Below, one piece after another: positions 23,336 to 28,078 of a stretch of 64,000 nt of DNA. The notes beneath the pieces are model-generated. The model was not told the DNA's origin. It searched no databases and saw nothing but the letters and a program-made list of their open reading frames with translations. The position numbers and the translations under genes are program-made. Source of the DNA: Natronococcus sp. A-GB1 (GTDB taxonomy: Archaea; Halobacteriota; Halobacteria; Halobacteriales; Natrialbaceae); the NCBI RefSeq assembly GCF_029688845.1, contig NZ_JARUKW010000006.1, positions 124,001 to 188,000 on the forward strand, written 5' to 3'. Positions within the stretch are counted from its first letter, which is position 1. Each line of letters opens with the position of its first letter.

Positions 23336-23818
23336 ATGGCGACTGAACGGACCCGGCGAGCGGTGCTCGCGGCGTCCGGCTCTCTCGCGACGCTCGGACT
23401 CGCCGGCTGTTTCGGCGACGACGACGGGGACGACGAGGAGTACGTCGCCGTCGAGGCGCTTACCCTCACGGATCCCGAGACGGGAGAGTCGCTCACCGCG
23501 ATTGACGGGGACGGATGGGAGGTCGAACCGCTTCTCGTCCCGCTCGAGGGACGGCTTCCGGTCGGCGCTCGAGTCGAGGACACGAACGGGGAGTTGCCAC
23601 TCGGCGAGGACGGGAGCTACCACGTCGGTGCCGTTGCCGTCGAGGAGGGTGACGAAACTGTCGCGATCGAACCCGACGGCGACCGCGTCGGTCTGGTCGG
23701 TCGATCGGCGGGAAAGACCGAGATCACCGTCGAGCTCTGGGACGGCGATCGGTTCGGGTGGGACTCCCCGCCGCTCGAGGTCGAGGTCGTCGACGACTTC
23801 GAGGGGCCGGTTGCGTAG
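23336..23818 (+). CDS. Tat lipoprotein with the shared zinc-locus domain (His-poor version)
   Basis: A 160-residue secreted lipoprotein. The signal has a twin-Arg motif (RTRRAVLAASG) and lipobox LAGC with Cys25, so it is lipid-anchored outside the membrane. Residues about 36-155 form one beta-rich domain with landmarks DPETGESLTAIDGDGW, LLVPLEG, LGEDGSY, AIEPDGDRVGLVG and WDSPPLEVEVVDDF. The same landmarks occur in the next gene and inside the SBP at 24886-26265. The His of the other copies (HDDHW) is replaced by GDGW, so metal binding is probably lost or altered. It may bind another ligand or form a complex with the His-rich copy. Confidence 0.82.
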   Translation: MATERTRRAVLAASGSLATLGLAGCFGDDDGDDEEYVAVEALTLTDPETGESLTAIDGDGWEVEPLLVPLEGRLPVGARVEDTNGELPLGEDGSYHVGAVAVEEGDETVAIEPDGDRVGLVGRSAGKTEITVELWDGDRFGWDSPPLEVEVVDDFEGPVA

Positions 23819-23996
23819 CGGTTCGGCTCGTCGGCGCTGTCTCCCCCCGAGCCCGACTATGGGTGCCTTGTCGCACTCTACGGATCTTTGTGTCTTCTGT
23901 TACGCGCTACCACTATCGTTCGATCGCCGCCCCATCGATTAATAATATCGCCAGGTTCATTATCAACCCCTCTCACTCTACGAGTGGTATCTAACA

Positions 23997-24695
23997 ATGA
24001 CGATCGATCGCACCAGCTCGACCCGTCGGAAGCTGCTCGCTGCGTCCAGTTCCCTCGCGGTACTCGGTCTCGCCGGCTGTGTCGGCGACGACGACGAGGA
24101 CGACGAAGCAGGCGCTGATGACGGTGACGACGATCAGGACGACCACGACGACGATCATGATGATGATGACGACGATCACCACATGGACGTCGAGGAGTTC
24201 GAACTGCTCGACCACGAGTCCGGCGAGCAGCTCGCGTACGTCCACGACGACCACTGGGATCACGGTCCGCTGTACGTCCCGCTCGAGGACGGCGTCGCCG
24301 TCGAGGCCCACGCCGAGGACGCCGACGGCGAGGAGATCGACTTCGGCGAGGACGAGGAGTACCAGCTCGAGGCCGAGGTGGCCGAGGGTGCCGAGGAGAA
24401 CGTCGAGATCGAGTCCCACGGCGACCACGTCGAGCTAACCGGCGAGGAGGAAGGAATCACCGAGGTTATCTTCCAGATCTGGCACGACGACCACTCCGAC
24501 TGGGATTCACCGGAGCTCGAGGTCGAGGTTGTCGAGGACTTTGACGCCGAAGAGAACCACGCCGACGGCGACTACCACGACGACGATCACGACCACGATC
24601 ACGACGACCACGACGACGACCACCACGACGACGACCACCACGACGACGACCACCACGACGACGACCACCACGACGACGACCACCACGACGACTAG
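23997..24695 (+). CDS. Tat lipoprotein with His-rich linker, shared zinc-locus domain and (HDDDH)n tail
   Basis: A 232-residue extracytoplasmic lipoprotein: twin-Arg signal (STRRKLLAASSSL), lipobox LAGC with Cys28, an Asp/His linker (31-62), one copy of the shared domain (about 64-181, with EFELLDHESGEQLAYVHDDH, VPLEDG, FGEDEEY, EIESHGDHVEL and WDSPELEVEVVEDF), and a C-terminal tail (188-232) of repeated HDDDH. The tail could bind several Zn2+ ions weakly, like the His-rich loop of bacterial ZnuA or the ZinT/AztD chaperones. Lying directly upstream of the zinc-type SBP, it probably captures or buffers metal outside the membrane; that role is inference. Confidence 0.85.
   Translation: MTIDRTSSTRRKLLAASSSLAVLGLAGCVGDDDEDDEAGADDGDDDQDDHDDDHDDDDDDHHMDVEEFELLDHESGEQLAYVHDDHWDHGPLYVPLEDGVAVEAHAEDADGEEIDFGEDEEYQLEAEVAEGAEENVEIESHGDHVELTGEEEGITEVIFQIWHDDHSDWDSPELEVEVVEDFDAEENHADGDYHDDDHDHDHDDHDDDHHDDDHHDDDHHDDDHHDDDHHDD
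24578..24690 (+). repeat. 15-bp tandem repeats encoding the HDDDH tail
   Basis: The unit cacgacgacgaccac repeats almost perfectly in the second half of this stretch, with shorter CAC/GAC variants before it. Near-identity at third codon positions suggests recent expansion, so tail length may differ between strains. Confidence 0.88.
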
Positions 24696-24823
24696 CGACT
24701 CGGCCCCGCCCTCCGCACCCGCAACCGACTCTCGTGTCTTTCCCGTTTCGCCCGCCCACGATCCCCTTTTAATCCGCGCTCGAGATCGCCGCCCGTTGTT
24801 ATCACACAGCCGGTCGCTGCAAC

Positions 24824-24857
24824 GAGTTATTAACCAACCTCGGCCACATAATAACTC
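24824..24857 (+). promoter_or_regulatory. 9-bp perfect inverted repeat at the SBP promoter
   Basis: GAGTTATTA (24824-24832) and TAATAACTC (24849-24857) are exact inverse complements separated by 16 bases. The right arm lies where the TATA box of the SBP gene (ATG at 24886) should be. A zinc-responsive repressor acting here would block TBP. Loosely similar AT-rich words followed by CAACC occur upstream of the 23997 gene, and in reverse orientation upstream of the 23336 gene. Confidence 0.55.
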
Positions 24858-24885
24858 TTTTACCCACCCGCTCGTATCTCCCTGT

Positions 24886-26265
24886 ATGACACGGTCACGC
24901 CGCGCAGTGTTGCGCTCGAGCGCCGGTGCGCTCTCCCTCGGCGTTCTCGCGGGCTGTCTGAGCGAGCCCGACGACGAGGGTGGGGACGCGGACGAGGGGT
25001 ACGCCGCCTTCTTCACGCTCGCCGACTGGACGGAACAGATCGTCGGCGACGAACTGACGATCGAGAACCCGGTCGAAACCGGAGAGATGGGCCACGGCTG
25101 GGAGCCGCCGGTCGACCTCCAGCGCGAGATCACGGAGTCGGCGTTTTTCGTCTACCTCGATTCGCCCGAGTTCGCCTGGGCACAGGACGTCGCGGCCGAC
25201 CTCGAGAACGAGGACGTCGAGCTGATCGACGCCCTCGAGACCGTTGAGGACCAGCTGATCCCGATGGACCGCGAGACCGACGAGGATCGCGACCCCGTCG
25301 AGGAGTACGACGACGACCCGGCCGCCGTCGAGATCGCCGAGTTCGAACTCTACGACGGACGCACCGGCGAGGAGGTCGCCTACTGGCACGACGACCACTG
25401 GCACGGTGGGGTTCCAGACGTCCCGCTCGACGGACAGCTCGCGATCGAGGGCGTCTTCGAGGACGCGGAGGGACGCGTCCTCCCGTTAGGCGAGGACGAG
25501 CCGTTCGCACTCGAGGCCACGATCCCCGACGGCGCGGATGAGGACGCCATCGAGATCGAGTCGCAGGGGGACCACGTCGAGTTCCACGGCCTCGAGGAGG
25601 GTCGAACGATGGTGGTCTTCGAACTCGTCGCCGACGGCAAGGTCGTCTGGGACACGAGCGCGGACAACCTCTCGGTCGCGGTCGCCGAGGACGACGACGA
25701 GGAAGCGACGGAGTTCGCCGACCCCCACGTCTGGGTCGACCCCGTGCTCGCTCAGGAGATGGTCGAGACGATCGCAGCCGAGTTGGGCGAGATCGATCCG
25801 GACAACGCCGACACCTACGAGGAAAACGCCGCCGACTACACCGATCGGATGGACGACGTCCACCGAGAGCTCGAGGAGGTCGCCGAGAACGCAACCCGGG
25901 ACGTCGCGGTTCTGGCGGGCCACCAGTCGTTCGGCTACCTCGAGGAGCGTTACGACTTCGAGATCCGAACCCCCGTCGGCGTCTCGCCCGACGCCGTCGA
26001 GTCGAGCGAGGACGTCTCGGAGCTGATCGAGGCGATCGAGGCCGAGGACATCGACACGATCCTCTACGACCCCTTCGAGAGCACCGACAGCGACGTTCCG
26101 CAGATGGTCGAGGTGCTGCTCGACGAGACCGATGCAACGGACGCCGAACCGGTCACGCCCGCGGAGGGAACGACCGAAGAGTGGAACGAACAGGGGTACG
26201 GCTGGATCGAGCAGCTAGAGGAAATCACCGTACCGTCGCTCGCGAAAGCACTCGGCGCCGAGTAG
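24886..26265 (+). CDS. znuA: Zinc-type ABC transporter substrate-binding lipoprotein with an inserted domain
   Basis: A 459-residue cluster A-I binding protein (Zn/Mn family), larger than the usual 300-340. It has a Tat-type signal (RSRRAVLRSSAGALS) and lipobox LAGC (Cys24). Metal ligands by family position are H70 (TGEMGHGWEPP), H281 (ADPHVWVDP), H346 (LAGHQSFGYLEERY) and probably D395. Residues about 147-267, just before the DPHxW motif, are an inserted copy of the domain found in the two preceding lipoproteins (EFELYDGRTGEEVAYWHDDH, WH, VPLDG, LGEDEPF, EIESQGDHVEFHG). Other ZnuA proteins carry their His-rich loop at this place. The C-terminal GYGWIEQLEEITVPSLAKAL is standard. Genes for ATPase and permease follow. 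Confidence 0.9.
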   Translation: MTRSRRAVLRSSAGALSLGVLAGCLSEPDDEGGDADEGYAAFFTLADWTEQIVGDELTIENPVETGEMGHGWEPPVDLQREITESAFFVYLDSPEFAWAQDVAADLENEDVELIDALETVEDQLIPMDRETDEDRDPVEEYDDDPAAVEIAEFELYDGRTGEEVAYWHDDHWHGGVPDVPLDGQLAIEGVFEDAEGRVLPLGEDEPFALEATIPDGADEDAIEIESQGDHVEFHGLEEGRTMVVFELVADGKVVWDTSADNLSVAVAEDDDEEATEFADPHVWVDPVLAQEMVETIAAELGEIDPDNADTYEENAADYTDRMDDVHRELEEVAENATRDVAVLAGHQSFGYLEERYDFEIRTPVGVSPDAVESSEDVSELIEAIEAEDIDTILYDPFESTDSDVPQMVEVLLDETDATDAEPVTPAEGTTEEWNEQGYGWIEQLEEITVPSLAKALGAE

Positions 26266-26321: not shown

Positions 26322-27062
26322 GTGAGTTCGATCGTCGACATGGAGCACGTGACGTTTTCCTACGGCGAGACCGTCGCCATCAGAGATGTCTCGCTGACGA
26401 TCGAGGCGGGCGACTTCCTCGGACTGGTCGGGCCGAACGGCTCGGGGAAGACCACCCTATTGCACCTGATGCTCGGCCTGCATAGTCCCGACAGCGGACG
26501 GATCGAGCTCTTTGGCCAGCCCGTCGACGAGTTCGACCAGGGCGGACGCATCGGCTACGTCTCTCAGAAGGCCACCAGTCGGGGCGGAACGATGCCCGTC
26601 ACCGTCCGCGAGGCGGTCACGATGGGACGGTTCGCCCACGCCGGCCACTCGCGGCTGACCGACGACGACCGCGAGATTGTCGACGACTCCCTCGAGACGG
26701 TCGGCATTACCGACCTCTCGGACCGACGGATCAACGAGCTCTCGGGCGGCCAACGCCAGCGCGCCTACATCGCGCGGGCGCTGGCCTCCGAGGCCGACCT
26801 GCTGGCGCTGGACGAACCCACCGTCGGGGTCGACGCCGAGTCCCGGGACGCGTTCTACAAGCTGCTTGACTCGCTCAACGACGCCGGGATCACGATCGTC
26901 CTGATCGAACACGACATCGGCGTCGTCACCGATCGGGCCGATCGGGTCGCCTGCATCAACACGGAGCTATTCCACCACGGGGATACCGAATCGTTCGTCG
27001 AAAGCGACGCCTTGGAGCAGGCGTACGGATCGACCGGACAGGTCGTCCACCACCACCACTGA
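26322..27062 (+). CDS. znuC: Zinc-type ABC transporter ATP-binding protein
   Basis: A 246-residue ATPase with Walker A GLVGPNGSGKTTLL, Q-loop VSQKATSRGG, signature ELSGGQRQRAYIARALA, Walker B LLALDEPTVGVD and H-loop VLIEHDIGVV. It powers import through the permease encoded next. Its last residues are HHHH, a possible regulatory metal site. The GTG at 26322 (VSSIVDMEHVTFSYG) is chosen; the ATG at 26340 would remove six residues. It lies 56 bases after the SBP and overlaps the permease by one base. Confidence 0.92.
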   Translation: MSSIVDMEHVTFSYGETVAIRDVSLTIEAGDFLGLVGPNGSGKTTLLHLMLGLHSPDSGRIELFGQPVDEFDQGGRIGYVSQKATSRGGTMPVTVREAVTMGRFAHAGHSRLTDDDREIVDDSLETVGITDLSDRRINELSGGQRQRAYIARALASEADLLALDEPTVGVDAESRDAFYKLLDSLNDAGITIVLIEHDIGVVTDRADRVACINTELFHHGDTESFVESDALEQAYGSTGQVVHHHH

Positions 27063-28078
27063 TGGAGCGGACAACAAGACGCCACCTCGAGCGGGTCGGG
27101 ATCGCGCTCACGGGGCTGTTCGCCGTCGTGATGATGCTCTTTCTGGCCCTCGAGTGGCTTCAGGAGTACCCCTACGCGGGGACGCTGTACGACCAGTACA
27201 CGGTCGCCGGAATGTGGCTCGACTACTACCTCGGAACGAGCGTCTTCGGCTACTCGTTTATGCTGCGGTCGATCGCGACGGGCGTCCTCGTCGGGATCGC
27301 CGCCCCGCTGGTCGGTACGTACCTCGTCCATCGGGAGATGGCCCTGATCGGCGAGACCCTCGCTCACACCGCGTTCGCGGGGGTCGCCATCGGGCTGCTC
27401 TTTAGCGCGACGACCGACTGGGACGGCTCCCTGCTCGCCGCCGCGCTCGTCGTCGCCGTGATCGGCGCCCTGCTCGTCCAGTTTCTGTCCGAACGGACGA
27501 ACACCTACGGCGACGTGCCGATCGCGATCATGCTCACCGGGAGCTTCGCCGTCGGGACGCTGATCATCAGCTACGGCCGTGGCGGCTTCTCGGGGGTCAG
27601 CATCGAGGACTACCTGTTCGGGAGCGCGGCCGTCATCCCCGCCGAGGGCGCGCGGCTGGTCGCGATCCTGACCGTCGCGGTCGTCGCCGTCGTCGCGATC
27701 ACCTACAAGCAGCTGCTCTTTATTACGTTCGACGAGCAGGCCGCCCGGGTTGCCCGCCTCAACGTCACCTGGTACAACACGCTTTTGATCGTGATGACCG
27801 CCGTCGTCGTCGTCGGCGCCATGCAGATCATGGGCGTGATCCTCGTCGCCGCGATGCTCGTCATCCCGGTCGCGGCCGCCTCCCAGGTCGCCCACGGCTT
27901 TCGCGAGACGCTCTCACTGTCGATCCTGTTCGGACAGCTGTCGGTGCTCGGCGGGTTCGGCTTCGCGATCTCGCAGGGGCTCCCCCCCGGCGGCTCGATC
28001 GTCGTCGTCGCGATCGCGATCTACGGGCTGGCGATCCTCGCCTCGAGCCGCTCGGGGAATGCGATCTCGATGCACTAG
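27062..28078 (+). CDS. znuB: Zinc-type ABC transporter permease (ABC-3 family)
   Basis: A 338-residue membrane protein with about eight to nine helices. ABC-3 family landmarks are GIAAPLVGTYLVHREMALIG, ETLAHTAFAGVAIGLL, SIEDYLFGSAAVI and AMQIMGVILVAAMLVIPVAA. The N-terminus has an extra helix (ALTGLFAVVMMLFLALEWL) relative to short bacterial ZnuB. Its ATG overlaps the last base of the ATPase stop, so the two are coupled. It completes the importer; manganese or iron remain possible substrates. Confidence 0.92.
   Translation: MERTTRRHLERVGIALTGLFAVVMMLFLALEWLQEYPYAGTLYDQYTVAGMWLDYYLGTSVFGYSFMLRSIATGVLVGIAAPLVGTYLVHREMALIGETLAHTAFAGVAIGLLFSATTDWDGSLLAAALVVAVIGALLVQFLSERTNTYGDVPIAIMLTGSFAVGTLIISYGRGGFSGVSIEDYLFGSAAVIPAEGARLVAILTVAVVAVVAITYKQLLFITFDEQAARVARLNVTWYNTLLIVMTAVVVVGAMQIMGVILVAAMLVIPVAAASQVAHGFRETLSLSILFGQLSVLGGFGFAISQGLPPGGSIVVVAIAIYGLAILASSRSGNAISMH

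Follow-up and report, generated by a model that had tools for sequence, protein, structure and literature searches.

An immunoglobulin-like domain, free and inserted in a ZnuA-type binding protein, in a probable zinc regulon of Natronococcus

Why should three neighbouring secreted proteins of a haloarchaeon, one of them the substrate-binding protein (SBP) of a metal importer, carry the same domain? The question is raised by a stretch of 64,000 nucleotides from Natronococcus sp. A-GB1 (the window; contig NZ_JARUKW010000006.1, C54:124001-188000 in our numbering). Genes for two lipoproteins, which we call P1 and P2, and for the SBP follow one another on the + strand, and genes for an ATP-binding cassette (ABC) ATPase and an ABC-3 permease come after them. 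A model's reading of the bare letters, the sequence-only reading below, had proposed that the three proteins share a haloarchaeal metal-capture domain. Our results show that this is a real domain family, unlisted in the domain libraries, whose fused and free forms occur in one probable zinc regulon. Arguing from homology, predicted fold, insertion site, histidine conservation, a shared operator sequence and gene neighbourhoods, we hold with fair confidence that it is a metal-capturing immunoglobulin-like (Ig-like) module, which serves one zinc importer in a free and a tethered form, is derepressed together with it under zinc limitation, and has been reused for nickel and cobalt.

One domain in three proteins

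The three open reading frames were found where the sequence-only reading had placed them, and they share a domain of about 122 residues. In pairwise BLASTP comparisons P1 and P2 match at 4e-34 (with the signal peptide counted in), P2 and the SBP at 4e-29, and P1 and the SBP at 2e-11. Profile-profile alignment with hhalign, each profile being made from orthologues of that gene alone, gives 99.9% (E 1.6e-31) for P1 and P2, 99.1% (E 3.8e-19) for P1 and the SBP insert, and 99.9% (E 2.7e-36) for P2 and the insert. The sequence-only reading would have been given up had its three regions lacked a significant match between hidden Markov models; since all three pairs match significantly, its claim of one domain in three consecutive secreted proteins stands. 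Searches of Pfam, NCBIfam and PDB sequences with the domain returned chance-level matches only, and neither Pfam nor NCBIfam has a family for it. The features of the locus are:

23336..23818, + strand: P1, a lipoprotein of 160 amino acids (aa) whose single domain copy no longer has the candidate metal ligands
23438..23800, + strand: domain copy of P1 (hhalign against the P2 and SBP profiles)
23938..23967, + strand: operator-like element 5' of P2, ATTAATAAT-12-ATTATCAAC; one mismatch to RTTANTAAY-N12-RNTANTAAY, 0.01 matches expected per window
23997..24695, + strand: P2, a lipoprotein of 232 aa with a single domain copy (HxxHWD and GDH), a His-rich linker and an (HDDDH)n tail
24177..24542, + strand: domain copy of P2 (AlphaFold model, pLDDT 96.6, pTM 0.90)
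24826..24855, + strand: operator-like element 5' of the SBP gene, GTTATTAAC-12-CATAATAAC
24886..26265, + strand: ZnuA-type metal SBP of 459 aa with the inserted domain (PF01297, E 1e-42; the model matches AdcA, AztC and YcdH)
25321..25695, + strand: domain copy that interrupts the SBP where ZnuA and AdcA have their His-loop (BLASTP, hhalign, model)
26340..27062, + strand: ABC ATPase of the importer (PF00005, E 2.4e-33; start codon inferred)
27062..28078, + strand: ABC-3 family permease of the importer (PF00950, E 2.7e-55)

The same genome holds a second insert-bearing SBP on contig C55 and one SBP without an insert on contig C12.

The AlphaFold model of the P2 domain, for which the alignment held 117 diverse copies, is an all-beta Ig-like sandwich of 11 strands. 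All 11 strands reappear in the insert in the SBP model (pLDDT 89.9), one for one and in order, with a shift of about 122 residues, so that the fold of the free P2 domain recurs in the insert. Models cover the P2 domain and the SBP; P1 belongs to the family by its profile matches. The nearest solved fold is a domain of the surface-layer (S-layer) protein SbsC (Z 9.3 over 91 residues, 3.2 A), followed by bacterial Ig-like domains. Because values of Z near 8 are common among such folds, these matches say only that the domain is Ig-like.

By its PF01297 match and its fold, with AdcA, YcdH and AztC as top Foldseek matches of the body, the SBP is a ZnuA-type protein of cluster A-I. Its metal ligand set (H, DPH, H and an acidic residue) is intact in the alignment, in GHGWEP, DPHVW, AGH and LYD. 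The insert had been placed at residues 147-267, between the N-terminal lobe and the DPHxW motif, where ZnuA proteins usually have a His-rich loop. We find it at about residues 146-270, and the PDB alignment of the SBP to AdcA is interrupted exactly at AdcA's acidic, His-containing loop, the insert lying between the AdcA stretch that ends EEEEGDHDHGEE and DPHVW. In other insert-bearing SBPs the PF01297 match is likewise interrupted mostly at profile positions of about 97-101, which is the His-rich loop. A further haloarchaeal ZnuA-type SBP (L214:5236-6789, - strand) holds a different insert in this loop, between His-rich stretches, which the domain profile does not match.

Across the 117 copies four neighbouring positions are well conserved: H23 (92%), H26 (91%), W27 (99%) and H28 (78%). 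The HxxHxH triad is found in 87 of the 117 non-redundant copies and HxxHx[HDE] in 105; among inserts the latter is present in 37/37 archaeal zinc-type and 7/7 urease-type SBPs. H145, H148 and W149 of the SBP are invariant across 52 SBPs that span both domains of life, and H23 and H26 are usually lost jointly. A GDHxH strand (81-86) is strong among the free copies and less so among the inserts. Judging from this conservation, the triad, which is HxxHxD in P2, is the best candidate for the metal ligands. P2 does carry the (HDDDH)n tail that the sequence-only reading had described, and P1 does lack the histidines, having D, G and E at H23, H26 and position 28. There is more to P1 than a His-less partner, though: its gene is not preceded by the shared operator either, and it is seen only in Natronococcus-like genomes. 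Its orthologues there are 60-88% identical with a ratio of nonsynonymous to synonymous substitution rates of 0.19-0.39, which means purifying selection, and hence P1 is a conserved His-less copy.

The shared operator and the metal

The sequence RTTANTAAY lies 5' of zinc-type SBP genes and of free genes linked to ABC genes, often as a pair at about -60 and -39, with a spacing of 21 bp. A half-site is found upstream of 43 of 50 SBP genes, 23 of 31 ABC-linked free genes and 67 of 814 other genes of the loci; for paired sites the counts are 21/50, 13/31 and 10/814, and since the sequences are related to each other, p-values for such counts are nominal. No upstream half-site was found at solo paralogues (0/14), P1-type genes or four urease-type SBPs.

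A genome-wide test, which we regard as independent of the upstream counts, compared the paired motif with its reversed pattern as a control. Sites with two mismatches were about as common as in the control, and so only sites with zero or one mismatch were used. At no more than one mismatch, the forward pattern occurs 5 times in this genome and the reversed one once; the sums over 31 family genomes are 73 against 25. Two of the five sites are the elements 5' of P2 and of the SBP gene. The other three (407909, 412453 and 414859) fall within C1:407909-414888, in a locus (C1:402000-421000) that encodes a COG0523 GTPase (cobW, PF02492, with CobW_C), a FeoB-like GTPase and enzymes that use FAD. The motif is present at the COG0523 locus in six other family genomes, and it also stands ahead of ZnuA operons whose SBP has no insert.

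COG0523 GTPases are classic zinc-starvation genes. An operator common to COG0523 and ZnuABC genes ties P2 and the SBP to a regulon of the zinc-starvation type; it is our best evidence that the operon in the window answers to zinc, and it points to control by zinc limitation. The COG0523, FeoB-like and FAD locus, conserved with its operator in several Natrialbaceae genomes, would be a candidate archaeal zinc-limitation regulon, for which the motif supplies a candidate operator.

Distribution and repeated insertion

Our searches of genomes centred on archaea and a Mollicutes-like group, with one contig scan using P2 as query. The domain is present in 61 of 341 Halobacteria genomes and in 3 genomes from another archaeal family of the same phylum, which are probably methanogens to judge by neighbouring genes, among them CbiM and cobalamin genes. 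Of 61 relatives of an Izimaplasma/Mollicutes metagenome-assembled genome (MAG), 10 have the domain. No further copy was found among 295 genomes drawn from the phylum of that MAG, nor by tblastn in a plasmid collection. The domain is therefore haloarchaeal, as had been proposed, but not exclusively so. Of three bacterial MAGs, two have sample codes in their names, CSSed and B1Sed; CSSed10 is a code used in a study of soda-lake sediments (PMC6146748), a link to such a habitat that is suggestive only.

Among the 141 non-redundant open reading frames with the domain, 65 encode SBPs with a single insert, 2 encode SBPs with two and 1 an SBP with three (one archaeal two-insert SBP was found afterwards). 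The module is both fused and free, as the sequence-only reading had proposed: of the free proteins, 48 adjoin ABC genes (1 or 2 copies) and 25 lie elsewhere (1-3 copies). In dozens of loci a free copy adjoins ZnuABC, about half of these copies ending in a His-rich C-terminal tail, and the free gene is frequently directly upstream of the SBP gene. A Mollicutes locus (L012) repeats the gene order of the window, with two-domain lipoprotein, insert-bearing SBP, ABC ATPase and permease, and adds a Fur-like gene, the ATPase and the Fur-like gene being named by eye from the sequence.

Several other arrangements were seen. The tandem inserts, two or three to an SBP, belong to bacteria and one haloarchaeon (L117:946-3042, - strand; L118; L124; L215). 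At L286:5496-7625 an operator is followed by a free domain lipoprotein that adjoins an insert-less ZnuA SBP. Secreted haloarchaeal proteins of 785-972 aa (L056, L059, L060, L096, L098) combine domain copies with a second repeat, LLxETxVDxxHACxHG...FYTADG, which has no Pfam match. A probable methanogen protein (L142:8447-9619, - strand) joins the domain to an N-terminal part that is FmdE-like by eye, without a Pfam match, and has formate dehydrogenase-like genes nearby.

How often did the domain enter an SBP? In a tree of SBP bodies, from which the insert had been cut out beforehand, bacterial and archaeal SBPs separate (support 99), and in both the insert-bearing SBPs are nested among insert-free relatives. 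A single clade of all insert-bearing bodies is rejected (approximately unbiased test, p 4e-54), as is one of the archaeal insert-bearing bodies only (p 3e-4). In the tree of the domain itself, archaeal zinc-type inserts form one group (support 99). A single clade of all inserts is rejected there too (p 0.018); groupings of the archaeal zinc-type inserts with the bacterial ones (p 0.11) or with the urease-type ones (p 0.46) are not. The bacterial SBP body comes from another lineage, which makes repeated insertion at one loop likely, and independent entry into the same loop is probably the simplest reading of these trees. One early gain followed by many losses, or exchange between copies, may instead account for the pattern. 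If insertion was repeated, one domain has entered the same loop of separate SBP lineages, archaeal and bacterial.

Tentatively, one could go further. An undescribed Ig-like metal module might have been inserted independently at the same His-loop in at least two, perhaps three, SBP lineages (archaeal zinc-type, archaeal urease-type and bacterial) while also circulating free in surface proteins of one to three domains. It might be a general plug-in for capturing zinc, nickel or cobalt in metal-poor saline and soda-lake habitats, which in Natrialbaceae would be under an unrecognised archaeal zinc-limitation operator.

What the domain may do, and what it resembles

We propose the following. The domain would capture a divalent metal, which we consider likely, through the HxxHxH triad (HxxHxD in many free copies), with the GDHxH strand assisting. 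The copy tethered in the SBP sits in a loop above the metal cleft, from where it would load the metal site or act as its gate. The free lipoprotein with its His-rich tail would act at the surface, collecting or buffering zinc there and passing it on to the SBP, a delivery that seems plausible. P2 and the SBP would be jointly derepressed at low zinc through their common palindromic operator, and paralogous SBPs and other importers would employ the module for nickel or cobalt. Four points weigh against this proposal. First, P1 retains the domain yet has lost the ligands. Second, the structures that match best are Ig domains of S-layers, which would be compatible with a purely structural role too. 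Third, the operator motif was discovered post hoc in the same sequences. Fourth, some domain proteins, solo or large and secreted, lie away from any importer and have no operator (none of the 14 solo genes).

One could also argue that the free copies are a surface store, which buffers or sequesters zinc without handing it to the SBP, while the insert merely raises the local metal concentration. We think this unlikely, though of all alternatives it fares best. The His-rich tails would suit a store, and in Corynebacterium diphtheriae the cell-wall proteins ZnuF and ZnuG act like sequestering proteins upon deletion of znuAECB (PMC12445094). However, the free domain is homologous to the SBP insert, which suggests a common partner or a relay, and its gene frequently stands right before that of the SBP.

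It is improbable that the domain is a structural or docking element that sets the spacing of SBP and lipoproteins at the S-layer or anchors them there, its histidines being incidental. The SbsC and bacterial Ig-like folds and the conservation of the His-less P1 would fit such a role, but similarity at Z 9 demonstrates no function, and HxxHx[HDE] is kept in most copies, most strictly among the SBP inserts.

We also give little credence to the view that nickel, cobalt or some other divalent ion, rather than zinc, is the main metal, even though parts of the family point that way. About 6 kb separate the gene of the other insert-bearing SBP in this genome (C55:46577-47833) from that of urease alpha (C55:40647-41006). 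This SBP belongs to a subfamily of 7 insert-bearing SBPs in which DAKFF replaces DPHxW, so that the DPH histidine is lost. Five of the seven, including the one in this genome, are near urease or urea-transporter genes, and one lies between them; from this proximity their substrate is likely to be nickel. Loci of this type are L055 (on C55), L058, L086, L109 and L041. In a probable methanogen a two-domain protein (L140:8597-12475) adjoins CbiM inside a cobalamin gene cluster. A divergent branch of the domain belongs to a cassette that also encodes a DUF7405 protein and a DUF7350/Iron_transport lipoprotein (L065, L069, L070, L079, L080, L083), which is perhaps related to iron or copper. The SBP in the window, by contrast, retains the DPHVW ligand set and shares its operator with a COG0523 gene, whereas the urease-type SBPs have neither the DPH histidine nor the paired operator. 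Hence, the idea of a zinc module seems to hold for P2 and its SBP and is too narrow for the family, in which nickel and cobalt are indicated too.

That the insert is a gate or sensor, which like the ZnuA His-loop or the AztC loops closes over the site or slows import at high zinc, is suggested by its position exactly at the His-rich loop but has little chance of being the whole answer, as it leaves the free homologues under the same operator unexplained.

On zinc acquisition by haloarchaea, the literature we searched holds no report beyond ZnuABC itself. The module adds an accessory component that can be tested, and a family of domains that neither Pfam nor NCBIfam contains. Because the free lipoprotein and the SBP insert are homologous, a single small domain is enough to test whether metal is handed over to an importer. 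That halophilic archaea, a lineage of methanogens and bacteria of the Mollicutes type all have the domain suggests that it is a reusable component for the capture of scarce metals.

The sequence-only reading had likened the module to the chaperones ZinT and AztD, while unrelated to them in sequence. No sequence similarity was detected indeed, but the nearest functional analogue is the actinobacterial anchored-repeat Znu system (SBP of TIGR03772; ZnuAECB, ZnuF, ZnuG and CmrA in C. diphtheriae). There, a Zn-regulated ABC importer has adjacent surface proteins with 1-3 copies of a His-motif domain, and a related motif is reported for the SBP (PMC12445094). A related domain in the SBP with copies in adjacent surface proteins is also what we find. 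In the anchored-repeat system, however, the HxD/HxH motif has its parts about 150 residues apart and is reversed and shorter in ZnuA. The domain described here has no match to TIGR03769 or TIGR03773 at E <= 1 in the 13 domain proteins scanned, and the match of P0003 to TIGR03772 covers the C-lobe of the SBP only. The domain system works like the anchored-repeat family, as far as the analogy goes, and is not classed as a member.

AdcA, a ZnuA fused to ZinT, and stand-alone ZinT likewise represent an accessory metal domain of an SBP both fused and free. ZinT is fused at the C-terminus, whereas the domain here lies inside the SBP, and ZinT (PF09223) has no match to the domain proteins in Pfam scans at E <= 1. 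AztD is a secreted protein that passes zinc to AztC, the SBP of an ABC importer (PMC6689063). Our free proteins are also secreted and linked to the SBP of an ABC importer, the hand-over being proposed only. AztD is a larger beta-propeller, and no AztD chain appears up to E 5 in an hmmsearch of the 117-row domain profile against the PDB, which compares sequences.

Streptococcal Pht proteins repeat the HxxHxH zinc motif, are located at the surface and have been proposed to deliver zinc to AdcAII (PMC12445094). Motif and location are shared with our domain; there is no detectable homology, and the histidine triad (Pht) model has no match at E <= 1 in Pfam scans. ZepA of Anabaena, compared by description only, is a secreted zinc protein under Zur control that likewise has an Ig-like domain, but it differs in its two domains and PEP-CTERM and is reported absent from Archaea (PMC10957091). 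In the way it works the domain system appears to resemble C. diphtheriae ZnuE/F/G, AdcA-ZinT, AztD and Pht, and it is not assigned to any of them.

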